64,000 nucleotides of DNA, from assembly GCA_017392525.1 (NCBI GenBank), contig JAFOVD010000006.1:62001-126000 (forward strand), in the 5' to 3' direction. The translations under genes and the position numbers were made by a program. How positions within the stretch are numbered: position 1 is the first letter of the stretch; each line of letters starts with the position of its first letter. This document shows positions 11,768 through 64,000 of this stretch, piece by piece. The notes beneath the pieces are model-generated. The model was not told the origin of the DNA, made no database searches, and saw only the letters and a list, made by a program, of their open reading frames with translations. Origin of the DNA: Lachnospiraceae bacterium. GTDB lineage: Bacteria > Bacillota > Clostridia > Lachnospirales > Lachnospiraceae.

Positions 11768-12766
11768 TTATGCCTTAACTGTAGATGTTTTTTTCTTAAA
11801 TCCACGAATCAACACGCTGATGCCAACCACAAGAACAACTACTACAAGTGCTCCCACAATACCTGAGAAACTTGTGCCACCATTGCCACTCTGGAAAGCA
11901 TAGTCCGGAAGAAGCGATGTTGTATTCTGAATATTTGCAGCCGCATCATAAGCTGATCCTGACGCCTCTAATTCTGCTGTACCGGCAATCTTTTCCATTG
12001 ACCATTCAAGTCCATCCGGATATGCAGATGCAAAATGGGATACTACACCACCAAAAAATGCCGCAATTACTGCGATCACACCTAACGTCCATCCTCTGCT
12101 TAACTTGCCTTCCTTTGCCTCTGTTCCAACTCCCCAAAGCATCTCCGGTCTTGCTTCATTAACAAAGATCAGTACTGCAGCTGTAATTAATCCCTCTACA
12201 AATCCGATTGCCAGATGGATTGGCTGCATTGTCGCTACGAATACAGAAAATGGTAATTCTGTAATGCCTGAAATCAACGTCTCAAGTGTTACTGAAAACG
12301 CCCCCATCTGTAATGTTAAAACTGAGCCCAATACAGACGCCAATGCAATCTTTCCACGAGATGTACCTTTCTTCATCATCGGTCTCCAAATAAGAAGTGC
12401 TCCGACAAAACATCCGTAGAAAGCCATATTCCATACATTACAACCAAGTGCCAACAGTCCGCCATCTGCGAACAACAGCCCTTGTACCAATAGAACTCCT
12501 ATCATTGTCAAAAATCCCGCATAAGGTCCGAGAAGTGCTGATGCCAGCATGCCTCCACAGAGATGTCCTGATGATCCCGTTCCCGGAATTGTAAAATTCA
12601 ACATCTGTGTTGCAAATATAAATGCTCCCATAACCCCCATAACCGGGACTTTTTTTAAATCGTCTTCTTCCTTAATTTTCTTAATGGAATAACCTGCTGC
12701 GATAGTTGATGCAGCATACATTGTTCCCGCAACTGCAGGTACAATAAGTGCGTCTGCCATATGCAT
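11768..12766 (-). CDS. cbiM: Fused CbiM-CbiN (PDGLE) cobalt/nickel S component
   Basis: A 332-aa substrate-specific subunit. The mature N-terminus MHMADAL supplies Met1/His2, which in the CbiM/NikM family help coordinate the metal. GTGSSGHLCGGMLA and GCNVWNMAFYGCF are typical CbiM segments. After about residue 225 a second unit begins with a helix and ends in a PDGLEWSMEKIAG segment, the PDGLE (CbiN/NikN) domain, followed by a last helix and a basic tail. M and N are separate in many species; here they are fused. No cobalamin riboswitch is visible upstream, so regulation may be metal-responsive rather than B12-responsive. Confidence 0.92.
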   Translation of the reverse strand: MHMADALIVPAVAGTMYAASTIAAGYSIKKIKEEDDLKKVPVMGVMGAFIFATQMLNFTIPGTGSSGHLCGGMLASALLGPYAGFLTMIGVLLVQGLLFADGGLLALGCNVWNMAFYGCFVGALLIWRPMMKKGTSRGKIALASVLGSVLTLQMGAFSVTLETLISGITELPFSVFVATMQPIHLAIGFVEGLITAAVLIFVNEARPEMLWGVGTEAKEGKLSRGWTLGVIAVIAAFFGGVVSHFASAYPDGLEWSMEKIAGTAELEASGSAYDAAANIQNTTSLLPDYAFQSGNGGTSFSGIVGALVVVVLVVGISVLIRGFKKKTSTVKA

Positions 12767-37107: not shown

Positions 37108-39527
37108 AAAATCACCCCATTCAATATCACGTTCACAATTCCTGCCACAATCCAGGCAATCATACATTGAAATGCTACTGTTGCAATCGCATATTTACGT
37201 CCCTGTTCCTGTTTAATGGACGCAACTGCCGCGATACATGGCGTATAAAGTAGGCAAAAAGTAAGAAATGTTCCTGCCTGAATCGCAGTCATCGCTCCCT
37301 TCATCGCTTGCTCACCACCATATAAAACACTCATCATGCTAACTATACTCTCTTTTGCCATAAAACCGGAAATAATTGCTGTAACGAATTTCCAATCTCC
37401 AAGACCGATTGGTGCAAAAATCGGAACCAATATACCTGACACCATCGCCAGTATACTATCTGATGAATCCGAAACCATATTTAATCCGGTATCAAAGCTC
37501 TGGAGAAACCAGACTACAATTGTTCCAACAAAAATAAATGTAAATGCTCTCTGCAGGAAATCTTTGGCTTTATCCCACATAAGCTGAAGCACATTTTTCA
37601 CTCCCGGCATACGATAATTTGGAAGCTCCATAACAAACGGAACCGCCTCACCTTTAAAAATCGTATTCTTAGAAATTAATGCTACAAGAATCGCGATTAC
37701 TATACCACCAAAATAGAGTAGAAGCATTATCGGCATCGCATATTCTGGGAAAAACACATTTGTAAAAAACGCATATACCGGCATCTTTGCTGAACAACTC
37801 ATAAATGGAATCAGAAGTGTAGTCATACGTCTATCTCGTTTAGATGGAAGAGTTCTTGTAGACATCACCGCCGGAACAGAACATCCAAATCCAACCAGAA
37901 GTGGAACAATACTTCTTCCGGACAAACCAATCTTTCTAAGCAACTTATCCATTACAAATGCGATTCTTGCCATATATCCGCTATCTTCCAACAATGATAA
38001 AAAGAAAAACAGTGTCACAATAATCGGCACAAAACTAAGAACCGTCCCTACTCCAGTAAATATTGCATCTATCACCAGACTATGTATCGGTGCTGCAACA
38101 TGAAGCGACATAAGTAATTTATCTACCTCTTGCGTAATCAAATCAATTCCGTCGGCAATAATATCCTGCAAAAATGCACCAATCAAATTAAATGTCATAT
38201 AGAAAATCAACGCCATGATTCCAACAAATACCGGTATAGCCGTCCATTTACCTGTAAGAACTTTATCTATCTTCCGACTTCGCTGATGTTCACGACTTTC
38301 TCTTGGTTTAACAACCGTTTCCCGACATAACTTCTTAATAAAAATAAATCTCATATCTGCAATGGCAGCTGCACGGTCCAGACCTCTTTCTTCCTCCATC
38401 TGCCTTACAATATGTTCCATTGCCTCTTCTTCATTTGCATCCAATTTCAGTGCTTTTCTAACAAGTGTATCCCCTTCAATCAATTTGCTCGCAGCAAATC
38501 TCTGTGGTATACCTGCATTTTCTGCATGATCCTCTATTAATGCCATTACTCCATGCATCGCTCTATGCACAGCACCGTTATGATCTGTCTTATCACAGAA
38601 ATCTTCACGCCCCGGTGACTCTTCATACTTTGCGATGTGAAGAACATGTGCTATCAATTCGTCTATACCCTCGGACTTCGCTGCGGAAATCGGAACAACC
38701 GGAATCTGAAGTAATGACTCCATCTCATTAATTCGCACATAGCCACCATTTCCAGTCATTTCATCCATCATATTCATAGCCAATACCATGGGAACGCCGA
38801 GTTCCAAAAGCTGCATCGTAAGATACAGATTTCTCTCCATATTTGTTGCATCTACGATATTAATGATTGCTGTTGGCTTTTCATCCAATATAAATTGTCT
38901 GGATACAATTTCTTCATTCGTATAGGGCGACAATGAATAAATTCCCGGCAAATCCACGACTTCCGTATTGGGATATCCCTTTATAGAACCACTCTTTCTA
39001 TCTACCGTAACCCCTGGGAAGTTACCCACATGCTGATTTGATCCCGTAAGCTCGTTGAATAATGTTGTCTTCCCACAATTCTGATTTCCCACTAATGCAA
39101 TGGTTATCTTCTTATTATCAAACACCTTCTGCTCATGTGTATGCTTTAATCCATCTGTCTTTGTACCATTTTCCACTTCCATATGGGAATCCTTGGTCGT
39201 GCCTTCTTCACCATACCCGGGATGTGCTACTTCCTTCTTTGCCTTAGTCTTTGTTTTCGTCTTCTTTAACTTTTCTTCTTCCGCCTCATAAAATGCGGTG
39301 GATCTAGGCTTAACAATCTCTATCTTCTCTGCATCCGCCAGACGAAGAGTAAGCTCATACCCACTGATACGAAGCTCCATCGGATCTCCCATTGGAGCAT
39401 ATTTAATAAGCGAAATCGTCTGCCCCGGAATCACACCCATATCCAGGAAATGTTGACGCAAAGCGCCCTCTCCACCAACCGATGTAATCGTTGCTGTCAT
39501 TCCGATTTCTAAATCTCTAAGTGTCAT
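37104..39527 (-). CDS. feoB: FeoA-FeoB fusion, ferrous iron transporter
   Basis: An 807-aa fusion. Residues 1-76 are a FeoA-type SH3-like domain (LRDLEIGMTATITSVGGEGALRQHFLDMGVIPG). A Lys/Thr/Glu-rich linker follows (about 77-135). Then comes the FeoB G domain, with G1 GNQNCGKTT (147-155), G3 DLPGIYSL and G4 NMMD, then helical and membrane parts with two gate regions (MARIAFVMDKLLRKIGLSGRSIVPLLVGFGCSVPAVMSTRT and GIVVAILVALISKN-like). It imports Fe2+ powered or gated by GTP. I chose the ATG at 39527 because GAGG lies 8 nt upstream. In many bacteria FeoA is a separate protein. Confidence 0.94.
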   Translation of the reverse strand: MTLRDLEIGMTATITSVGGEGALRQHFLDMGVIPGQTISLIKYAPMGDPMELRISGYELTLRLADAEKIEIVKPRSTAFYEAEEEKLKKTKTKTKAKKEVAHPGYGEEGTTKDSHMEVENGTKTDGLKHTHEQKVFDNKKITIALVGNQNCGKTTLFNELTGSNQHVGNFPGVTVDRKSGSIKGYPNTEVVDLPGIYSLSPYTNEEIVSRQFILDEKPTAIINIVDATNMERNLYLTMQLLELGVPMVLAMNMMDEMTGNGGYVRINEMESLLQIPVVPISAAKSEGIDELIAHVLHIAKYEESPGREDFCDKTDHNGAVHRAMHGVMALIEDHAENAGIPQRFAASKLIEGDTLVRKALKLDANEEEAMEHIVRQMEEERGLDRAAAIADMRFIFIKKLCRETVVKPRESREHQRSRKIDKVLTGKWTAIPVFVGIMALIFYMTFNLIGAFLQDIIADGIDLITQEVDKLLMSLHVAAPIHSLVIDAIFTGVGTVLSFVPIIVTLFFFLSLLEDSGYMARIAFVMDKLLRKIGLSGRSIVPLLVGFGCSVPAVMSTRTLPSKRDRRMTTLLIPFMSCSAKMPVYAFFTNVFFPEYAMPIMLLLYFGGIVIAILVALISKNTIFKGEAVPFVMELPNYRMPGVKNVLQLMWDKAKDFLQRAFTFIFVGTIVVWFLQSFDTGLNMVSDSSDSILAMVSGILVPIFAPIGLGDWKFVTAIISGFMAKESIVSMMSVLYGGEQAMKGAMTAIQAGTFLTFCLLYTPCIAAVASIKQEQGRKYAIATVAFQCMIAWIVAGIVNVILNGVIL

Positions 39528-62622: not shown

Positions 62623-63618
62623 CTATGCAAATACAAAAATAGTATCCAGCATTCTTAAAATTCGTAAGTTACCCTTTGCAGTCATATCTCCAACACCAAA
62701 TGCTCTTTGGAATGTTTCACGTCCTCCAATAATATCATTTAACACTCCGGTAGATACTCGCGCATATACGTCAACCGGACCTTGCTCACCATATATAACC
62801 GATATATCTCCATTATCCACATGAATATAGAGCGGTTTTGATTTTCCTTCAATCTGGAAACTATATCCTGCCTTAAAATCTGCCTGAGGTACAAAGTGAG
62901 AACGAAATGTTCCGATATACTCAGTCTCAGCATTCTCTTCCATCTGACCTCCCAGCAGGTTTCTATACATAGAGGAAAGTTCTGCGATATCCATCTTCTG
63001 CTGTTTAACGTAATTATCATCTGAAACGTATTGTGATAACTGCTCGCTCTCCTGTGGCGTCAGATTCAATGCCTGTGTATGAAGCACATTATTTCGAACA
63101 GCCTGATTACTTGTCGGCAATCCCTTGGCTTTTTGAGAAATAGTACGATACAGATTTTCGGCCTTTTTCTCAATAATTCTGGAATACTCTGCGTTTACTT
63201 CAAATGTAGAAACATCTTCCACATAACCACAAAGACCGCTACAAGGAAGGCCACCGAGAATCTCCCAGGCATTTTCCAGTGTCGTCATACCCTCGCGCTC
63301 GCCATATGTTGTAGACATAACAACCGGCTGCATATACATGTGTTTCATCTTTTCTTTGTCCCCATAAAGCCAGCATGCATCCAAAAATTCATTCATAAAG
63401 CCGCCGATTCCAAGCCACTCCACCGTTGTTGCCAGAATAATTCCATCCACATCCTTGAATGTCTGTGGCAAGGTTGAGATTTCTTTCTTATTCTCATATA
63501 TATTAAATCGATGAACCTCAACATTCAGCTCCAACAAAACCTGTTCCATTTTGCTGATTACATGAAGTGTTGGATCATCCAGGACACCTCGTCCTCCGTA
63601 ATAGATATTTACTTTCAT
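62623..63618 (-). CDS. Flavodoxin-like FMN protein fused to an SCP2 domain
   Basis: A 331-aa fusion. Residues 1-175 fit a flavodoxin-fold NAD(P)H-type FMN reductase (MKVNIYYGGRG, ILATTVEWLGIGGFMNEFLDACW, PVVMSTTYGEREGMTTLENAWEILGGLPCSGLCGYVED). A helical spacer follows. The last 100 residues fit the SCP2 sterol-carrier fold: FKAGYSFQIEGKSKPLYIHVDNGDISVIYGEQGPVDVYARVSTGVLNDIIGGRETFQRAFGVGDMTAKGNLRILRML. The SCP2 part may bind a lipid. A TTGATT/TATACT promoter lies upstream. The HIT gene follows. Substrate unknown. Confidence 0.85.
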   Translation of the reverse strand: MKVNIYYGGRGVLDDPTLHVISKMEQVLLELNVEVHRFNIYENKKEISTLPQTFKDVDGIILATTVEWLGIGGFMNEFLDACWLYGDKEKMKHMYMQPVVMSTTYGEREGMTTLENAWEILGGLPCSGLCGYVEDVSTFEVNAEYSRIIEKKAENLYRTISQKAKGLPTSNQAVRNNVLHTQALNLTPQESEQLSQYVSDDNYVKQQKMDIAELSSMYRNLLGGQMEENAETEYIGTFRSHFVPQADFKAGYSFQIEGKSKPLYIHVDNGDISVIYGEQGPVDVYARVSTGVLNDIIGGRETFQRAFGVGDMTAKGNLRILRMLDTIFVFA

Positions 63619-63662
63619 TAAAGTCCCTTTCTACAAGTTTCTCTTGGATTTATCTATGGATA

Positions 63663-63691
63663 AGTATAATTTTTTTCCAAACGAAAATCAA
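63663..63691 (-). promoter_or_regulatory. Promoter of the flavodoxin-SCP2/HIT operon
   Basis: On the minus strand TTGATT (63686-63691), a 17-nt spacer and TATACT (63663-63668) lie 45 nt before the ATG at 63618. The box sits about 40 nt past the end of the small RNA candidate. Confidence 0.65.
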
Positions 63692-63710
63692 TTTGTAAGA
63701 CCTATTTCTG

Positions 63711-63750
63711 CATAGAAAAAGAGTTCGAGCTTTATTGCTCGAACTCTTTT
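63711..63750 (-). terminator. Terminator of the small RNA candidate
   Basis: The perfect stem AAAAGAGTTCGAGC/GCTCGAACTCTTTT with a 6-nt loop is followed on the minus strand by TTTTTC. No protein gene ends just before it on this strand within the window. Confidence 0.92.
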
Positions 63751-63910
63751 CCTAGTTGTTTTCGTTTTGAGGGTTTCCGGATATCTTCCTAAATGAGGGA
63801 GGGGAAGATATCCAGGGAAAGAGCAGAAGAAAATTGAGGGGGAGAGGGGAAACTGCTCTTTCCTGTTTTAAAACTATGATTGAAACGTATCCTGTCGTTT
63901 CCTTCAGGAT
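63711..63910 (-). ncRNA. Candidate small RNA with four hairpins and C-rich loops
   Basis: An extended -10 TGCTATTAT on the minus strand (63917-63925) would start the RNA at A63910. Four hairpins follow in order: ATCCTG/CAGGAT (63889-63910); GGAAAGAGCAG/CTGCTCTTTCC with a C-rich loop (63816-63863); GGATATCTTCC/GGAAGATATCC with a C-rich loop (63779-63813); and a terminator stem AAAAGAGTTCGAGC/GCTCGAACTCTTTT (63716-63750) with T5. The two C-rich loops and the linker after hairpin 3 all contain CCCTCA. Such CU-rich loops can pair with ribosome binding sites. A 62-codon frame here has no ribosome site and breaks no stems, so I do not call a gene. Confidence 0.62.
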
Positions 63911-63916
63911 GGTTAT

Positions 63917-63925
63917 ATAATAGCA
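63917..63925 (-). promoter_or_regulatory. Extended -10 promoter of the small RNA candidate
   Basis: On the minus strand TGCTATTAT fits an extended -10 element (TGnTATAAT with one change). Seven bases further is A63910, the first base of hairpin 1. No good -35 is needed for this promoter type; TTGAAC at 63935-63940 is a weak alternative paired with TATAAC. Confidence 0.5.
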
Positions 63926-64000
63926 ATCGATTATGTTCAAATTGTCACCATTCTCTAAAGACTGCCTAAATTAAAAATTAATAGTTTATTAATTTTATGA

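Follow-up and report, generated by a model that had tools for sequence, protein, structure and literature searches.

In Firmicutes, small RNAs (sRNAs) such as RsaE and FsrA use a C-rich seed against Shine-Dalgarno (SD) sequences. The Lachnospiraceae are abundant in the gut and rumen. In this report, we describe a pair of putative sRNA genes from this family. One of them, copy a, lies on the minus strand at 63913-63715 of a 64,000-nucleotide (nt) stretch of a Lachnospiraceae bacterium genome (GenBank assembly GCA_017392525.1, contig JAFOVD010000006.1, positions 62,001 to 126,000). We call this entire stretch "the window", and coordinates refer to it unless otherwise stated. A prior examination of the bases alone (the "sequence-only reading") had posited an undescribed C-rich sRNA gene at this site. 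That proposal is well supported by a paralog (copy b), by orthologs of both copies in a second species, by compensatory base changes, by a common promoter, by terminators, and by the lack of a corresponding Rfam family. The best reading of these four sequences is that they belong to a known functional kind, the C-rich base-pairing sRNAs, and not to a known homology family.

Among the closest described systems is LhrC of Listeria. According to the available portion of PMC4132741, LhrC1-5 are 111-114 nt long, occur as five almost identical copies, and carry UCCC sites; three redundant CU-rich sites bind a G-rich leader, with pairing at the SD region, independently of Hfq. The RNAs described herein are likewise multicopy and have three C-rich sites each, with two copies per genome and CCCUCA three times in each copy. 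They differ in being about 200 nt long, in having two copies that are 73% identical to one another, in placing CCCUCA in two loops and a linker, and in possessing an extra 5′ hairpin. The 6C RNA of actinomycetes has two stem-loops, each with at least six C residues, and the title of a paper cited there indicates that pairing by the C-rich loops of 6C in M. tuberculosis is independent of chaperones (PMC8388888, in part); the accessible text of PMC3890552 on 6C contains nothing on mechanism. Each of the two C-rich loops in our RNA (loops A and B, below) also has at least six C residues, but this is a resemblance only: the phylum is different, there is no match to 6C up to an E-value of 10, the loops alternate C with U, and there is a third site in the linker. 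Finally, IsrR of staphylococci has three C-rich regions and is iron-repressed and Fur-regulated, as stated in the available part of PMC9410917. It shares with our proposal the redundancy of C-rich sites; it is set apart by that regulation and by the absence of any relation in our Rfam scans (whether Rfam holds IsrR was unchecked). Those scans also provided no match to families such as RsaE and FsrA.

Read along the minus strand from 63925 to 63711, the locus begins with an extended -10 promoter (TG-C-TATTAT) and ACCATCCTGAAGGAAACGACAGGATACGTTTCAATC. Two long hairpins, each with a C-rich loop, come next, and they are followed by CCCTCAAAA in a linker and by a 16-base-pair (bp) terminator. The elements on which the sequence-only reading was founded, namely the extended -10, a hairpin, the two C-loop stems and the terminator, are therefore all present at 63711-63925 on that strand. 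The -10 promoter, TGCTATTAT at 63917..63925, has its TG at 63925-63924 and its TATTAT at 63922-63917, and TG-N-TAT is retained in all four copies. Farther upstream, at 63929..63939, the element TGAACATAATC aligns in all four copies and is part of a block common to both paralogs' promoters, in which the conservation between a and b reads ACAA..T.TGAACATA.TC..TTG.TAT..TA. The pattern TGAACATANTCNNTTGNTATNNTA, which joins the upstream element to the -10, has just two perfect matches per genome, namely the sRNA genes; all other matches carry three mismatches, and the total numbers equal those in reversed controls (6 vs 6 in the host genome, 5 vs 5 in the second species). A simple promoter scan did not list the copy-a promoter, which is without a good -35, and returned three other weak promoters. 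Because the promoter and upstream element are common to a and b, both copies are probably under one regulator and respond to the same signal. Transcription would begin at about 63911-63910, near CCAUCCUG and immediately 5′ of the first hairpin, giving a predicted transcript of roughly 195-200 nt.

Downstream of the 5′ hairpin, the RNA is dominated by hairpins A and B. Hairpin A (63816..63863) has an 11-bp stem and a 26-nt C-rich loop (63852-63827) with the first CCCUCA site at 63840-63835. Hairpin B (63777..63815) has a 13-bp stem and a 13-nt C-rich loop (63802-63790) with the second site at 63799-63794. A single-stranded linker (63753..63776) follows. It contains the third CCCUCA, which had been noted before and is indeed found, at 63773-63768, where it is followed by AAAA and is retained in all four copies; it is predicted to be 93% unpaired. 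The intrinsic terminator (63715..63752) has a 16-bp stem, a 6-nt loop and a U-rich 3′ arm. Owing to its A/U flanks it is nearly symmetric on both strands, and a terminator scan reports just its plus-strand form; in our own reading, the minus-strand form went unlisted because its U run was counted inside the stem. With its own promoter and terminator and a conserved structure, the interval 63913-63715 is well supported by sequence as an independent gene.

The fold of this RNA is far more stable than expected from its composition. A 196-nt stretch was folded that starts at 63906 and thus does not include the beginning of the 5′ hairpin. Its minimum free energy is -72.4 kcal/mol, compared to -36.2 ± 4.0 in dinucleotide shuffles (z = -9.1; 0/200 shuffles as low). 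The corresponding z values are -6.3 for the a ortholog and -4.5 for each of the b copies. When both strands of the window were scanned for hairpins with at least 10 pairs in the stem and at least 45% C in the loop, seven rows were returned. Five of these are nested registers of hairpins A and B, and two are other hairpins, of 10 and 11 bp, whose loops have no long C runs. For comparison, six 2-mer-shuffled sequences, each scanned on a single strand, yielded 0, 1, 0, 3, 1 and 0 rows. Given the shuffle-beating fold and the outcome of the hairpin scan against shuffles, the structure at this locus is real and not a product of chance. The sites themselves are also unusual. Three CCCUCA occurrences were attained in just 2 of 20,000 mononucleotide shuffles of the window RNA, all four copies have one each in loop A, loop B and the linker, and the sites of the window copy are 93-100% unpaired in the predicted ensemble.

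The host genome is represented by a 1.99-Mb assembly that is 79% complete; its copy b is located at C8:31264-31437, with C8:31295-31448 as the coordinates adopted for the gene. Both copies are also found in a congener, Lachnospiraceae bacterium AC2012, a rumen isolate (placed by NCBI in the Lachnospiraceae, Lachnospirales), at 38564-38717 and 1544691-1544852 of contig JNIN01000001.1, and copy a of that strain is 92% identical to that of the window. The congener is identified as AC2012 by the exact agreement of its coordinates with those of this contig. As far as sequence can tell, then, the two paralogous copies in this Lachnospiraceae lineage are a gene family and not a single oddity. No further member was recognized beyond these two species. 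A DNA search detected the RNA, at an E-value of 0.001, in 2 of 98 relatives, counting the host genome itself. A covariance model (R1), applied with strict filters to 397 genomes of the family and with seven candidates scored per genome listed, likewise hit two. A scan of the four genomes of the genus gave strong matches in the host and AC2012 only; weak ones (E 0.5-9.9) appeared in another congener (G001) and in the host, and the two of these that were read (L053, L054) show only a short common stretch. When named genomes were scanned with a pattern, 38 stretches were obtained. The model, run on 16 of them, matched the two AC2012 stretches only, and in the printed bases of the remaining 22, read by eye, none resembles this RNA. 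No match was found in plasmids or phages by blastn or in viral contigs by exact pattern. In the more distant congener G002 (L060, C69), an inspection by eye finds no RNA gene in the gap of about 50 nt or less that separates an FHA-domain gene from the flavodoxin-like gene behind it; the copy-a site is accordingly lineage-specific, by a gain or by a loss in G002.

The sequence-only reading proposed covariation of the stems in relatives as a check. Compensatory changes are in fact present in three of the four stems, whereas the 5′ stem, being identical in all four copies, neither gains nor loses support in this respect. In the host genome, 7 of 11 pairs of stem A differ on both sides between copy a and copy b, with pairing retained. 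This count comes from our own script with a register set by hand, as MAFFT shifts the 5′ arm of stem A by one base and a second attempt did not help; in that register, 9 of the 11 positions are paired in copy b of AC2012, whose own fold has a small internal loop. In stem B, 3 of 12 pairs are changed on both sides with pairing retained, and one position of copy b is unpaired. In the terminator, 6 of 16 pairs have changed on both sides while remaining paired, and there is one additional one-sided change. The terminators of a and b are very different, and this last comparison, also from our script, was made from the loop outward with a base-by-base match between them assumed. Stem B was evaluated by a covariation tool as well. 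In its count for alignment A3, covering the 5′ hairpin and stem B, 68 of 68 cells are paired and three pairs have two-sided changes; sliding the alignment by 1-3 columns reduces the paired fraction to 24-52%. Three of the tool's five measures beat shuffles, 3 of 500 of which reach them. As to coding, a 62-amino-acid (aa) open frame spans the RNA, but two deletions, of 2 nt and 1 nt, break it in the 92%-identical ortholog. The conservation therefore does not follow that protein frame, which is the outcome that would have counted against the sequence-only reading.

At gathering scores, an Rfam scan of the window retrieves only tRNA and glmS, with no family that matches the sRNA. The glmS ribozyme/riboswitch lies at 2610-2761 on the minus strand and scores 52.2 bits against a gathering score of 37. 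With permissive settings, the interval 63600-64000 returned 18 weak matches, the best of them to ylbH, on the opposite strand and with a score of 23.9 bits where the cut-off is 50; these were set aside. Up to an E-value of 10, the Rfam scan of that interval has no match to 6C or to RsaE, and none is listed to LhrC, for which Rfam presumably holds a model. Among the matches listed in the open-access literature, outside of which many journals lie, the available text includes no description of this RNA and no account of base-pairing sRNAs from the Lachnospiraceae; no paper on AC2012 was found in the open-access literature. The gene pair is thus very probably uncatalogued, in the sense that it is in no Rfam family at the gathering score, and it offers a comparatively supported example of an sRNA in a species for which a named strain, AC2012, exists.

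How might these RNAs act? We consider it likely that they are trans-acting sRNAs that employ three redundant C-rich sites, without Hfq, at UGAGGG/GGGAGG ribosome-binding sites and thereby lower the translation of selected mRNAs. In this proposal, the common promoter and upstream element would switch both copies on by the same signal. The two covarying stems would hold open the CCCUCA sites of loops A and B and of the linker, which would pair with UGAGGG/GGGAGG stretches at ribosome-binding sites, block ribosome binding, and decrease translation. The proposal is modeled on LhrC and IsrR because redundant C-rich sites are their known working mode, and translational repression at the SD region would fit known practice in Firmicutes. 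Action in trans is favored because no plausible co-oriented gene lies downstream of copy b, and because the gene that follows copy a is equipped with a promoter-like site of its own. Further, Hfq (PF17209) was found in none of the four congeneric genomes, one of which is 99% complete and three 77-83% complete; the same search was positive in 5 of 14 control genomes. If the proposal is correct, the design seen in LhrC and 6C, with several copies and redundant C-rich sites, would operate where no Hfq gene is found, and the sRNA pair would be a test bed for target choice by such RNAs.

Possible targets were compared among 59 gene-like open reading frames (ORFs) of the window, 57 of which have a comparable leader in AC2012; each leader was ranked by whichever of its duplex energies in the two species was the weaker. 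The two targets named earlier, the chemotaxis receptor and pgi, do not stand out by predicted pairing, ranking 6th and 16th of the 57, respectively. In each species UGAGGG occurs in 2 of these 57 leaders; a single one, that at 12766, is common to both. The gene concerned (11768-12766, minus strand) encodes a CbiM/CbiN-type cobalt transporter that scores above the Pfam cut-offs and below those of NCBIfam, and in its leader AAAGUGAGGG is retained across the two species while bases beside it are changed. A second lead came from the whole genomes, in which an ftsA/pilM-like leader has the site UGAGGGAG / TGAGGGAG in both species, with predicted loop B pairing of -22.5 and -22.9 kcal/mol. The underlying pattern, TGAGGGRG...ATG, has 26 sites in the host and 28 in AC2012, compared to 7 and 8 in the reversed control, counts that are confounded by SD sequences and were not used as statistics. 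Some of these sites we take to be copies of 23S rRNA, and those that look like it (five in AC2012, one in the host) were left out. The CbiM-type and ftsA-like leaders are candidate target leads only, and the chemotaxis receptor is a further possible target.

Several of our results weigh against this account or against its details. When loop A was shuffled with its composition preserved, its pairing with leaders of the window equaled or exceeded that of the real loop in 192 of 200 trials; general SD pairing is consequently no evidence of specificity, and no enrichment of targets emerges. All duplex energies, those for AC2012 leaders included, were computed with the loops of the window genome. 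By duplex energy the CbiM-type leader is 9th of 57, behind the chemotaxis receptor, and its UGAGGG doubles as the ribosome-binding site, for which conservation would be expected in any case. The ftsA-like candidate was chosen from among pattern matches, of which 12 of 48 rows lead a plausible ORF (100 aa or more, preceded by no more than 15 open codons). The covariation comes from two species and four sequences and derives essentially from one duplication, and for two of the tool's five measures, 294 and 390 of 500 shuffles do at least as well as the real alignment, as there are only four sequences. Lastly, base pairing assigns no role to the most conserved part of the RNA, the 5′ hairpin.

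This hairpin (63889..63910) pairs AUCCUG with CAGGAU around a AAGGAAACGA loop. Over 63882-63910 of the minus strand, both the AUCCUG/CAGGAU and the GAAAC/GUUUC arms are the same in all four copies. The GAAAC of the loop (AAGGAAAC) can pair with GUUUC downstream, at 63886-63882, over 5-6 bp. The first hairpin of the sequence-only reading is therefore present but has a competitor: in the window copy, AUCCUG/CAGGAU and GAAACG/CGUUUC are nearly equal in energy (-5.9 and -5.8), whereas copy b favors the former (-5.9 or -6.3 vs -2.7 for the alternative). Were GAAAC/GUUUC to form a pseudoknot, only 1-3 nt would be available to span the first stem, and for this reason a switch or a simple hairpin is as likely.

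The conservation of the 5′ hairpin invites the thought that the RNA mainly binds and titrates a protein, most likely CsrA, by means of GGA motifs there and elsewhere, with the C-rich loops being secondary. CsrA was found in three of the four congeneric genomes, the hairpin presents AAGGAAA in its loop with ACAGGAU alongside, and GGA occurs seven times in the window RNA, compared to 1.3 in mononucleotide shuffles (0/1000 reach seven); the four copies have 7, 8, 5 and 5. CsrA-titrating RNAs of the CsrB/RsmZ kind, however, show many GGA motifs in hairpin loops, and here just one of the seven is in a loop. One is 63% unpaired, one 32% and one 13%, the other four are 0% unpaired, and those in the stems are partly the complement of UCC. 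We regard such a role as unlikely. Equally doubtful to us is a two-headed RNA, in which the near-invariant 5′ GGA hairpin, as a pseudoknot or a two-state switch, would dock on or titrate CsrA and the body with its three CCCUCA sites would pair with mRNAs, as two co-regulated paralogs in a lineage where no Hfq gene is found. If it were true, it would couple control by CsrA with genes for metal uptake and the cell envelope.

Because copy a is upstream of a gene on the same strand, at a distance of about 95 nt and with the terminator between, a cis-acting leader or attenuator must also be weighed. That gene (62623..63618, minus strand) lies outside the sRNA; it has a match to the SCP2 domain and a presumably flavodoxin-like N-terminus. 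Beyond the terminator it is preceded by a promoter-like site of its own, TTGATT-17-TATACT at 63663..63691 (minus strand), with the same hexamers and spacing in AC2012, and this marks the sRNA as a separate unit. Moreover, a leader role would not explain copy b. In both genomes the 3′ end of copy b faces the end of an HD-domain gene, and the copy is divergent from a gene of the small-multidrug-export family; no plausible gene of the same orientation follows it, whereas a riboswitch or attenuator would be the 5′ leader of a regulated gene across homologs. AC2012 does have a 94-aa frame in that orientation, but the frame overlaps with the HD gene and we consider it spurious. The element was also not seen by eye in 13 other upstream regions (G001, G002 and 11 more distant relatives), and the folds of the four copies contain no antiterminator. 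A cis-acting function is thus very improbable. We assign a similarly slight chance to the notion that the two copies are sponges for other RNAs and do not repress mRNAs at start sites. The retention of two divergent paralogs together in both species would accord with it, but both have the same C-rich sense, and their loops would not pair with each other. The near symmetry of the terminator and the lineage-specific locus could be taken to indicate a non-functional remnant, such as a mobile hairpin element or a bidirectional terminator. Against this stand the presence of two copies per genome at an E-value of 0.001, the absence of matches in the plasmid, phage and viral-contig searches, the compensatory changes and the conserved promoter; we judge it the least probable of these explanations.

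A wider class of CCCUCA-repeat RNAs was also considered and rejected. A three-CCCTCA pattern is present in 45 of 397 genomes of the family and in 45 in the reversed control, i.e., at background. Aside from the host and AC2012, stretches from 10 of the 43 matching genomes were scanned for repeats and ORFs, with six printed; the other 33 were judged from the printed match alone, which is partial in some cases. Stretches from six genomes (L145-L150, from G254, G228, G170, G201, G372 and G042) are direct-repeat arrays of CCCTCA or CCCTCATAAAAATG. Such arrays in other Lachnospiraceae are probably the ends of mobile elements, and those of G254 and G228 have a common TTTGGCAAACCCTCA end.
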